Assembly: GCA_017430535.1 (NCBI GenBank)
Contig: JAFRMR010000026.1
Span: 62,001-126,000 of the forward strand
Origin: Clostridia bacterium
GTDB lineage: Bacteria > Bacillota > Clostridia > Oscillospirales > Acutalibacteraceae
Reading direction: 5' to 3'
DNA: 64,000 bases
Below, piece by piece: positions 26,268 through 29,719 of the stretch; positions within the stretch are counted from its first letter, which is position 1; every line of letters begins with the position of its first letter. A model generated the notes under the pieces. It was not told the DNA's origin and did no database searches. It was given only the letters and a program-made list of their open reading frames with translations. The position numbers were made by a program, and so were the translations under genes.

Positions 26268-26303
26268 AAGAGCTGTGCCTCCGCCGGAGGCACAGCTCTT
26301 TTC
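26268..26303 (+). terminator. Intrinsic terminator
   Basis: A perfect 15-bp stem AAGAGCTGTGCCTCC / GGAGGCACAGCTCTT with a three-base loop ends in TTTTC, nine bases after the CNNM stop. Confidence 0.9.
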
Positions 26304-26348: not shown

Positions 26349-26376
26349 TTGAAATAATCTAAACTTTAACTATAAT
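26349..26376 (+). promoter_or_regulatory. Sigma-A promoter of the adenylation-condensation-carrier operon
   Basis: TTGAAA and a consensus TATAAT are 16 bases apart, about 55 bases upstream of the chosen TTG start. With the terminators on either side it defines a separate three-gene transcription unit. Confidence 0.7.
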
Positions 26377-26430
26377 AAAAAAGGTTATGTTACAAATTCA
26401 GGATTTGTGTTGCAAAGGAAGGGAAATTGT

Positions 26431-27978
26431 TTGAAAGAAGTGTATATCCCCACTCTTCGTGAAATAATTGATACCTCTGCAGAAAAATACGGCGATAAGC
26501 CTTTTATAAAATTTGTCAGGAACGATGAAACTGTTGAAAAGAGTTACGCAGATTTAAGAAGAGATGTTCTTGCCCTGTGCAGATATCTGCGCTACACTCT
26601 CGGCGGCCGCAAACATATTGCCGTGCTGGGCAGTTCATCCTATGAGTATATCGCCTTTATTCTGGCGGTTATAGTGAGCGGCAATGTGGCAGTCCCTCTC
26701 GCCCCTGAAATTTCCGCCAAAGAGGCGGCGTTTCTGGCGGATTTTGCCGATGCTCAGGTGCTTATTCACGAGCAGAAATTCGGCAACAGGGTAAATGATT
26801 TCAAAAAGCTCAGCGCCAAAAACACCCATGTGCTCAATATCGGCAATACGGATGCCTTTGAGGATACCGTAAAAAAATTCGGCGACGGCTCAGAATATGC
26901 TTCCCTTTCCGAGCTTGAGGTCAATAAAGAAGAATGCTGCATCATTGTTTTTACCTCCGGCACCACAGGAGTCAAAAAGGGTGTGATGCTTTCCACCAAA
27001 GGCCTTATAGGCAACATAATGTACGATGATTACTGGAATGTACTCTGTGAGGGTTATACCACCCTTTCGGTGCTTCCGATTCACCACGTTTTCTGCCTGT
27101 CCGGCGATATTATCCGCAATCTCAAGGACGGCCTCACGGTCTGCCTTAACGGCGATATAAGAAATCTGGGCAGCAATCTTCTGCGCTTTGAGCCTCATGT
27201 AATGAGGGCTGTGCCTATGATTGCCCAGTCCCTTCTTCAGAAGGTCCGCGTGCTTGAGGACAGAAACCCTGATTTAACCCCCGAAGAAGCAGCCGGGAGA
27301 GTTTTCGGCAAAAACCTGCGCCGCATTATTTCCGGCGCCGCATACCTTAACCCGGAAATGGTTGAGGAATACAAAAGGATGGGTATAGCCATCCGCCAGG
27401 GCTACGGTATGACCGAAGCGGGCTGCCGTATTTCCGTGCCGGATGAAACCGCCCCCGAAGGCTGTGTGGGCAAGGTAATCAATATTTGCGATGTGCGCAT
27501 CAGCAGGGGAGAGATTCAGGTTAAATCCCCCTCCGTTATGCTGGGTTATTATAAACTCCCCGAAAAAACCGCGGAAATGTTCACAGAAGACGGCTGGCTG
27601 AGAACCGGAGATATGGGCTATGTTACCCGTGAGGGCTACCTTTATATCACCGGCAGGCTCAAAAACCTGATTATTCTCTCCGGCGGCGAAAATGTTTCTC
27701 CCGAAGCCATTGAAAAGAAGTTTGCGGATTTCCCTGTTGTGCAGGAAGTTCTGATATACGAAAAGAACGATCATATTGCCGCAGATATATATCCCAATGA
27801 GGAGTACTGCAGGATCAACGGTATAGAAGATATTGAAGGCGCCATAAAGGAAAGAATAAAGGTGCTCAACTATCTGGCAAAACCCTCCCATATTATTTCT
27901 GAGGTTACTGTATGCGATGAGCCCCTTCCCAAAACCGAATCCGGTAAAATTGTCAGGAAAACCGTGCAAATCGGCTGA
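26431..27978 (+). CDS. Stand-alone AMP-forming adenylation enzyme (acyl/aminoacyl ligase)
   Basis: A 515-residue ANL-superfamily enzyme. The core motifs are present in order: P-loop-like FTSGTTGVKKGVML, aromatic GYGMTEAG, RTGDMGYV, hinge ITGRLKNLIILSGGENV and the C-terminal catalytic Lys in LPKTESGKIVRKTV. It would activate a carboxylate as acyl-AMP and load the small carrier protein encoded two genes downstream, or CoA. Overall it looks closer to fatty-acyl ligases than to amino-acid adenylation domains. AAAGGAAGGG is well spaced for the TTG; a GTG eight codons earlier is an alternative. The substrate is unknown. Confidence 0.85.
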   Translation: MKEVYIPTLREIIDTSAEKYGDKPFIKFVRNDETVEKSYADLRRDVLALCRYLRYTLGGRKHIAVLGSSSYEYIAFILAVIVSGNVAVPLAPEISAKEAAFLADFADAQVLIHEQKFGNRVNDFKKLSAKNTHVLNIGNTDAFEDTVKKFGDGSEYASLSELEVNKEECCIIVFTSGTTGVKKGVMLSTKGLIGNIMYDDYWNVLCEGYTTLSVLPIHHVFCLSGDIIRNLKDGLTVCLNGDIRNLGSNLLRFEPHVMRAVPMIAQSLLQKVRVLEDRNPDLTPEEAAGRVFGKNLRRIISGAAYLNPEMVEEYKRMGIAIRQGYGMTEAGCRISVPDETAPEGCVGKVINICDVRISRGEIQVKSPSVMLGYYKLPEKTAEMFTEDGWLRTGDMGYVTREGYLYITGRLKNLIILSGGENVSPEAIEKKFADFPVVQEVLIYEKNDHIAADIYPNEEYCRINGIEDIEGAIKERIKVLNYLAKPSHIISEVTVCDEPLPKTESGKIVRKTVQIG

Positions 27979-28013
27979 TTCTGCGTTTTGATATTTTTTG
28001 AAAGGACAGTTAT

Positions 28014-29393
28014 ATGAGCAGTAACAGAGAGTATTTTCCCTTTACCCCTGCGCAGGAAATGATTCATTTCATGCTTAAGTATTCTTTCTTTCACAAGCAA
28101 GTAATACAGATTCCCGCCTCCATCGTTGTCAAAAGAAAGATTGATTTTGACATAATGCAGAAGGCAGTTGAAAAAGAAATTGAAAGAAACGACTGTATGA
28201 GGCTCAGGTTTGAGAAAAAAGGCGGCCTCAGGCAGTATTTTGAGGATAAGATTGAAATCGGCAAAATTCCCGTTATCAGTTTCAAAACTCAGCAGGAGCA
28301 GGAGGATTTCCTCACCGCCGATGCTCAGAAACCCATCCGCTGCTTCAAAGGCGAAACCTACCGCCTTTATTTCTTCAATACCCCCGACGGCAGAAACGGC
28401 ATTTACATCAATGTAATTCATCTTGCTATGGATGCCCCCGCCGTTTTCACCTTCTTTGCTGATCTGCTTGCAGTTTATGAAGCCCTTGAGGCAGGTATCG
28501 ATATGCCCGCTCCTCTCGGCAGCTACAGGGAAACAATCAAAAAAGAGCTTGAATATATCAACAACAAAGAAAAGGTCCAGAAGGATAAAGAGTTCTTCGT
28601 AAACTATTTTCAGAAGGACGGCGAGCCCATCTGGAACGGCGTTATGGGCCCCGAACCTCTTGATAAGGCAAGAATCAAGAAAAAGAACCCCGAATTAAAA
28701 TCCTGCGGAAGCTTTGACCCCATTCACGATAAGGCTGAGCTTGAAAAGAAGCCACTCTCCGTTGAAGACAGCAAAGTTATCCTTGATTTCATGAATAAAA
28801 ACAGCATAAGCGGCGAGTGTGTTGTTCAGCTGGGTATGCGCCTTTATGTAGGCAAAATCAACCACAGGCACGAAGACACCCACTTCCTTGTGCTTTCCAG
28901 CAGGCGTAAAACCCTCAACGATAAGCGCTGCGGCGGTACTATGGCCTCCGCCCTTCCCTGGAGGATTATCCTGCCCGAAACTCTCACCTTTGCACAGGCC
29001 GTTGACAAGCTCAAGGTGCTGCAGGGCGATATTATGAGGCACAATAACTACCCCTTCCTTACCTGGCTTGAAGTTGAGCGCGAGATGTTCAATTACGGCA
29101 TGGTGGACGGCACCTCAACCATGATGTTCTCCTGGTTCCCCCTTGAGGACGATACTATGAACGGCTGGGAGTATGAGTTCCACAGCTATTGCCTGGGCAG
29201 ATATGTTATGCCCCTTTACACCTATGCGATGAAGGATTCCACCACCGGCGGCCTCAGGTTCGCATATCTCCACAGAACAGATACAATTTCCAAAGAGAAT
29301 ATAGATAACCTTCATAACGGCACCGTAAAAGCACTTGTTGCGGGCTGTTCAAACCCCGAAATGACTCTCGGCGAAATACTTGATATTATATGA
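28014..29393 (+). CDS. Condensation-domain-like acyltransferase
   Basis: A 459-residue protein with the CoA-acyltransferase/NRPS-condensation fold. The usual HHxxxDG active site appears as IHLAMDAPA: the second His and the Asp are kept, the first His is Ile and the Gly is Ala. A later GGTMASALPWRIILPE block resembles the condensation-domain GN-x-LPLR region. It lies between the adenylation enzyme and the carrier protein, so it probably transfers a carrier-bound acyl group to an amine or alcohol. AAAGGA lies before the ATG. The acceptor and product cannot be told from the sequence. Confidence 0.75.
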   Translation: MSSNREYFPFTPAQEMIHFMLKYSFFHKQVIQIPASIVVKRKIDFDIMQKAVEKEIERNDCMRLRFEKKGGLRQYFEDKIEIGKIPVISFKTQQEQEDFLTADAQKPIRCFKGETYRLYFFNTPDGRNGIYINVIHLAMDAPAVFTFFADLLAVYEALEAGIDMPAPLGSYRETIKKELEYINNKEKVQKDKEFFVNYFQKDGEPIWNGVMGPEPLDKARIKKKNPELKSCGSFDPIHDKAELEKKPLSVEDSKVILDFMNKNSISGECVVQLGMRLYVGKINHRHEDTHFLVLSSRRKTLNDKRCGGTMASALPWRIILPETLTFAQAVDKLKVLQGDIMRHNNYPFLTWLEVEREMFNYGMVDGTSTMMFSWFPLEDDTMNGWEYEFHSYCLGRYVMPLYTYAMKDSTTGGLRFAYLHRTDTISKENIDNLHNGTVKALVAGCSNPEMTLGEILDII

Positions 29394-29403
29394 GGTGAAT
29401 AAT

Positions 29404-29628
29404 ATGCTTGAAGAACTTAAAAAAATGATCTGCAACTATGTTTCCGCAGATGAAAGTGAAATTGATGAGAACACCAACCTCAGAAGCGAGCTTGCAATGA
29501 GCTCCCTTGACCTTATAAACCTTGCCGTAGAGGTTGAGGAAACATACAATATCGAGCTCCCTAACGAGGATATTTCAGGAATCACCACCCTCGGCGATCT
29601 TATGAAGTACATTTCCGTTAAGAAATAA
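29404..29628 (+). CDS. Acyl/peptidyl carrier protein
   Basis: A 74-residue acidic four-helix carrier protein. The phosphopantetheine attachment Ser lies in ELAMSSLDLINLAVEVEE, the usual DSL-type site with Asp replaced by Ser, followed by the helix III ELPNEDISGITTLGDLM. GAGGTG nine bases upstream, overlapping the stop region of the acyltransferase gene, favours this start over one eight codons earlier. It is the third gene of the operon and would shuttle the activated acyl group between its two neighbours. No phosphopantetheinyl transferase is nearby. Confidence 0.88.
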   Translation: MLEELKKMICNYVSADESEIDENTNLRSELAMSSLDLINLAVEVEETYNIELPNEDISGITTLGDLMKYISVKK

Positions 29629-29658
29629 GAATTGTATAAACAAAAGATTACAGAAGGC

Positions 29659-29689
29659 AAAGCAGCCCGGTCAGCCGGGCTGCTTTTTG
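29659..29689 (+). terminator. Intrinsic terminator
   Basis: The stem AGCAGCCCGG / CCGGGCTGCT with a TCAG loop is followed by TTTTTG, 30 bases after the carrier-protein stop. Confidence 0.9.
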
Positions 29690-29719
29690 TATAAAATAAT
29701 TGTCTGCAGAAAAAACAGC

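Follow-up and report, generated by a model that had tools for sequence, protein, structure and literature searches.

Within the window, as we call the whole 64,000-nucleotide stretch of DNA that was analyzed, three adjacent genes raise the question of what can be made by a ligase, a condensation-fold protein, and a carrier protein encoded as separate polypeptides, and whether such a set has a known counterpart. We give a probability of about 0.78 to the reading that the trio encodes an N-acyl-amide synthase of the fatty-acid amide (FAA) kind, made up of three proteins and dependent on the carrier. The gene set looks already known in kind, with a divergent branch and an unusual evolutionary pattern.

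Three Free-standing Proteins Are Encoded in One Compact Operon

The window lies within contig C24 of genome G000, whose assembly (27 contigs, 2.41 Mb) is 96.9% complete. One compact operon encodes A (an AMP-forming ligase), C (a condensation-fold protein), and T (a 74-residue carrier), each free-standing (Table 1). The genes are separated by 35 bp (A/C) and 10 bp (C/T). A preliminary description had treated a promoter, three tightly spaced genes, and a terminator as one unit, and this layout was recovered by open reading frames, consensus scan, and RNA folding at the positions listed. The promoter-like site was the top-scoring of 10 sites per 4 kb in a scan in which shuffles averaged 5.6. The terminator region (29655-29700) folds at -23.2 kcal/mol (z -4.92), a value that 0 of 200 shuffles equaled; the consensus scan detected only a 5-pair variant there. 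The likeliest start of A is TTG 26431, with AAGGAAGGG upstream, and GTG 26407 is a longer in-frame option. The flanking open reading frames (453 aa upstream; 159, 580, and 733 aa downstream) appear unrelated as judged by eye. A strong 15-pair hairpin at 26268-26300, after the upstream gene, is called a minus-strand terminator by the scan.

Table 1. Features of the A-C-T operon in window coordinates
Feature	Position	Strand	Basis
A, AMP-forming acyl ligase, 515 aa	26431..27978	+	Pfam AMP-binding 1.7e-51, AMP-binding_C_3 1.3e-4
C, free-standing condensation-fold protein, predicted N-acyltransferase, 459 aa	28014..29393	+	Pfam Condensation 7.1e-26
T, carrier protein, 74 aa, predicted phosphopantetheine Ser34 in SSLD	29404..29628	+	Pfam PP-binding 6.4e-12
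Sigma-70-type promoter-like site, TTGAAA-16-TATAAT	26349..26376	+	Consensus scan, 11/12
Intrinsic terminator, 10-bp hairpin and T run	about 29661..29688	+	RNA fold

The initial assignment as a free adenylation enzyme, a condensation-type acyltransferase, and a carrier stood, the AMP-binding, Condensation, and PP-binding matches all exceeding the curated Pfam cut-offs. A canonical NRPS module is a multidomain C-A-PCP protein with the motif HHxxxDG; the window holds three separate reading frames and the motif IHLAMDA. Discrete, co-encoded A, C, and carrier proteins are the arrangement of an FAA synthase.

The Gene Set Has a Counterpart in Gut Clostridia

FAA systems occur in many gut bacteria, their discovery being credited to Chang and colleagues, and the clusters of gut Clostridia are described as NRPS-like, with discrete A, C, and ACP proteins that make fatty-acid amides (PMC13142362). 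In the OAA pathway of Coprococcus eutactus, the oleoyl-aminovalerate pathway, the three free proteins are OaaA, OaaC, and OaaACP, and structure 12KH is that of OaaC, the free-standing condensation enzyme (PMC13142362). The window trio shares this organization of three free-standing proteins. The preliminary description knew of no characterized pathway with precisely this set; that claim fails, because a set of A, C, and ACP is already known from the OAA and FAA systems, and we rejected it on the match to 12KH/OaaC together with the FAA literature (PMC13142362).

By sequence, 12KH was the closest solved chain to C (E 2.8e-45, residues 5-458), with PvdL (3.1e-4) a distant second. C and OaaC are similar in length (465 aa in 12KH), match over nearly their full length, and both carry the motif His and Asp; identity is 27%, and the motif reads DHRLMDS in OaaC but IHLAMDA in C. 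The OaaC-related loci from a class-wide search are ordered C-(T)-A, whereas the window is ordered A-C-T. 12KH was absent from the best 50 Foldseek and best 50 VIA matches listed for C, perhaps because the library ends 2026-04-08. Among the top structural matches listed were the RzmA starter condensation domain and the first C domain of CDA synthetase, which resemble C in fold but share only 14-16% identity with it in the VIA alignments. We take the first C domain of CDA synthetase to be part of a multidomain enzyme and to use a carrier-bound amino-acid acceptor. Both features are described for starter condensation domains (PMC13142362). A non-acyltransferase fold for the middle protein was ruled out by the Pfam Condensation match and the structural matches.

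A reaction sequence can be proposed from the likeness to the OAA system. A phosphopantetheinyl transferase of the cell would arm T with phosphopantetheine at Ser34; candidate genes are present, two members of this family lying above the Pfam cut-off in the genome. A would then adenylate a fatty acid with ATP and load it onto T as a thioester, as its family suggests and as is reported for OaaA, which adenylates a fatty acid and loads it on the carrier (PMC13142362). C would use His136 to take the acyl group off T and join it to a small amine that diffuses freely, as is reported for OaaC, yielding an N-acyl amide. In the in vitro assays reported for OaaC, amides were formed from oleoyl, palmitoleoyl, and lauroyl donors; its homodimer is partly dissociated by holo- or acyl-ACP (PMC13142362). 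An N-acyl amide, which had been put forward as one example of a product, is the best reading as predicted from this likeness. A thioesterase would not be needed, because C would release the N-acyl amide by transfer to the free amine. The deep divergence of C suggests that the acceptor may be other than aminovalerate or GABA.

C Carries an Altered Motif and Is Placed beside the OaaC Clade in Two Trees

For the C_FAA class, the motif is given as (D/H)HxxxDS, with Ser (42%), Ala (36%), or Gly (17%) in the last place; the second-place His exceeds 99% and the sixth-position Asp is highly conserved, and position 1 is not called invariant in that paper's description of the motif (PMC13142362). The altered active site noticed earlier is borne out: IHLAMDA comprises residues 135-141 of C, with His136 and Asp140. 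In size and fold C falls within the C_FAA definition (stand-alone, 300-520 aa), with 459 aa, a Pfam Condensation match, and a fold match. The second-place His and the Asp, also part of that definition, were present in all 24 window-type rows. At the first position, Ile of the window departs from the C_FAA D/H. Of the 24 window-type rows, 10 had His at this position and the other 14 had Ile, Phe, Ser, Thr, or Cys, so that the window Ile reflects a relaxed position 1 across the clade. Asp or His stood there in 23 of 24 FAA-group rows. In the rows of a second type of C found in the genus, the first residue was His in three and Gln in one, and HHLAFDG occurred in three of the four. The residue after the motif Asp is Ala in the window (Ala 14, Asn 10 among the 24 window-type rows), in agreement with the mostly S or A rather than G of C_FAA. 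Six NRPS rows, a small set consisting of the NRPS-like sequences that matched the profile best, had HH and also Ser or Ala after the Asp; this residue is therefore no mark of the FAA type in the present set.

The C_FAA class is reported to be monophyletic (127 sequences) and to carry an insertion of 17 residues that includes a helix near 214-224 (PMC13142362). Window C aligned gap-free to OaaC across this helix in an alignment that contained no NRPS domain, and the AF2 model of C has a helix at 213-224, with pLDDT values of 47-58 there.

As judged in two trees of sequences gathered here, the window C clade is long-branched and lies beside the OaaC-containing clade, not inside it; long branches were flagged in both trees. 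The two clades fall on the same side of a 100/100 branch from the NRPS domains. When 20 window-type C proteins (19 from the genus, window included, and one from G789) were compared with 26 of the OaaC clade, 32 columns were conserved at at least 85% in both groups, and 10 of these residues were found in none of the six NRPS C domains compared. Three columns are conserved differently (window type/OaaC clade): E178/D, L277/T, and W374/Y. Twelve rows (partial, near-copies, and the long-branched L094) had been dropped from the second tree and the column comparison; from the first C tree, the partial L027 was dropped, and the fragment L033 was not entered. Window-type C and second-type C may form a single clade that long branches have split; the AU test gave p 0.0115 against this but shares the long-branch pull.

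The long branch and the differing motif could also indicate that, with the same A and T steps, C acylates an alcohol, a sugar, or a lipid head group to give an ester or envelope lipid, and the condensation fold is also known to make esters. We consider this unlikely, since the conserved residues of C are common to the amide-forming OaaC clade and no wax-ester synthase family matched C, Condensation being its sole Pfam family up to E 1.

The Trio Is Conserved in the Genus

A search of 60 genomes with window C returned 28 matching genomes (own included), all within the 37 of the genus, which are 63-100% complete; none of the 23 searched genomes of the order outside the genus matched. The window type was present in 25 of the 28, three carried only the second type, and G027 had both; the second-type loci are L029-L032, with 27-30% identity to window C. 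At the 25 window-type loci, A lay directly upstream in 21, was absent in three, and was cut off in one (L028); in L033, a fragment from the same genome as L028, A precedes the C start. T was directly downstream in 20, absent in four, and cut off in one. Full A-C-T was found on one contig at 19 of the 25 loci, and the surroundings differ between loci. The preliminary description had asked for a survey of block conservation of the three genes; the recurrence of this order in differing neighborhoods answers it for the genus and places the trio beyond chance.

In an order-wide search of 394 genomes, 10 matched at 1e-20 (own included), and the window type appeared, ordered A-C-T, in a single further family member, G789. 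Two looser relatives of C came from G523 (C-A-T) and G479, where A and T were not found in the 11 kb read around C. A phylum-wide draw of 398 genomes gave three matching (own included), with two partial matches lying in long reading frames (2348 and 1524 residues) that presumably encode multidomain NRPSs. Among stand-alone C loci from a class search, an A gene was located within about 0.8 kb downstream in 22 of 23.

Several variants were seen in the genus. C is alone, with neither A nor T adjacent, at three of the 25 loci (L055, L057, and L058; genomes G006, G031, and G033), and these genomes carry a second-type A on another contig (L116-L118), adjoined by T in G031 (L118). The operon of L016 has no T. 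In L048 (9649-11307), L049 (9654-11306), and L050 (9405-11072), the operon is immediately followed by another gene for an AMP-binding-type protein, with Pfam run on the L048 copy, and in L050 this gene occupies the T position. A putative GFO/IDH/MocA-like neighbor cluster (c3) stands after T or C in L053-L058, with members also elsewhere, and its presence next to the operon is taken as local synteny.

T scored up to 55 bits against acyl-carrier-protein models, below their cut-offs, and its Ser-Leu/Phe-Asp was kept at all 18 loci where the three proteins are full-length. Over 18 of the 19 three-gene loci (L022, with a cut A, was left out), the A-T identity correlation was 0.80. The partial correlation for A-T with C held constant was 0.68, a value reached in 0 of 2000 permutations; it was 0.32 for C-T given A (1 of 2000) and 0.20 for A-C given T. 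The permutations leave shared ancestry in.

The resemblance of A to CoA ligases, the T-less operon of L016, and the three genomes with C apart from A are compatible with A and C acting partly independently of T: A would make acyl-CoA or load the ACP of fatty-acid synthesis, and T would be auxiliary. The directly downstream position of T at 20 of 25 loci and the co-variation of A and T with C held constant speak against such an arrangement, as does the finding that oleoyl-CoA gave no product with OaaC in the reported assays (PMC13142362). We regard it as quite improbable.

A Scores Closer to Fatty-acyl than to Amino-acid Ligases

The top NCBIfam match of A was the long-chain fatty-acid-CoA ligase PRK06187, whose cut-off of 476 bits the score of 215 bits does not reach, and the amino-acid adenylation model TIGR01733 gave 112 bits. 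A shares 46-61% identity with the A proteins of 18 compared genus loci. A midpoint-rooted tree was built from all but one of the 21 window-type loci in which A adjoins C, and from 20 of the 22 A-containing loci of the class search; in it, window A falls among the A proteins of the stand-alone C loci from that search. Among solved structures, feruloyl-CoA synthetase and 4-coumarate-CoA ligase are the best relatives of A, not fatty-acyl ligases, and these would favor an NRPS-like pathway with an amino or aryl acid as substrate instead of a fatty acid, but the adenylation model reaches only about half the acyl-ligase score and A sits among the A genes of stand-alone FAA-type loci, which makes such a pathway very unlikely.

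Counted for the FAA-type N-acyl-amide synthase were the OAA gene set, OaaC as closest solved relative, the shared columns, the common side of the branch from the NRPS domains, the loci with A downstream, the placement of A and its fatty-acyl rather than amino-acid score, the two PPTase-family genes, and the reported OaaC assays. Counted against it were the 27% identity to OaaC, the Ile at the motif start, the position of C outside the OaaC clade in both trees, the three differently conserved columns, the Ser or Ala after the Asp in the few NRPS rows, the lone-C loci, the T-less L016, the A-C-T order, and the feruloyl/coumaroyl-like A.

The Operons Look Like Mosaics of C and A-T

Among eight loci (window and L005-L011), identity is 77-94% for C, 53-89% for A, and 37-83% for T. 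The eight form a single clade in the C tree (100/100), which is rejected by the A data (p-AU 9.4e-7). Conversely, the A tree joins L011 with L013 (100/99), and the C data reject this pair (p-AU 5.0e-6); the groups submitted to AU tests were named after the trees or the identity table had been seen. Three supported groups hold the A proteins of the eight loci: one with L005-L009-L010, one with L006-L007-L008, and one with L011-L013. Window A joins the last of these (96/84), at an identity of only 60-61%. Close C proteins are thus paired with at least three A lineages. A rate effect alone as the source of the A/C difference within the genus was rejected, as the topologies conflict.

The plain reading of these sequence comparisons is that C may have been exchanged or homogenized between operons, with A and its matching carrier remaining together; since C sits between A and T, C would be the part exchanged while the pair was kept. 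We infer that C would set the amine and A-T the acyl chain. Rather more tentatively, and with doubt prevailing, the loci may represent a sister FAA synthase family of ruminant-gut Clostridia that evolves combinatorially, a near-constant acceptor-side C being recombined with exchangeable acyl-loading A-T pairs, so that related species would attach different acyl chains to one shared amine. Natural A-T swaps against a nearly fixed C could show what sets acyl/amine choice and carrier recognition, which are named as an engineering problem (PMC13142362).

All 14 relatives of window C that carry names are contigs of MAGs; the labels of three are goat omasum, sheep omasum, and reindeer, and others bear RUG names, which denote rumen. 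By contrast, the FAA clusters of Chang et al. 2021 (Nat Microbiol 6:792) are from the human gut microbiome, and host GPCRs are bound by ligands made by such clusters in human gut Clostridia (PMC13142362). If relatives that are in part ruminant-labeled hold a clade of their own, this would extend FAA chemistry to livestock. None of the listed titles of the literature searched concerned FAA clusters in rumen bacteria, which is no proof of absence.

Two further loci were observed in G000. At about 5.2-12.9 kb of contig C10 (L114:5236-12875) lies a second small carrier-protein locus, in which a PPTase-family protein, an AMP-binding protein (497 aa), a PP-binding protein (92 aa), an asparagine-synthase-like protein, and two radical SAM proteins are encoded in a row. 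On contig C27, a stand-alone protein of 430 aa that matches Condensation weakly (33.8 bits versus a cut-off of 30.6) is encoded at about 76-77.3 kb (L115:5990-7282), preceded by an open reading frame with a sub-threshold DUF6320 match.
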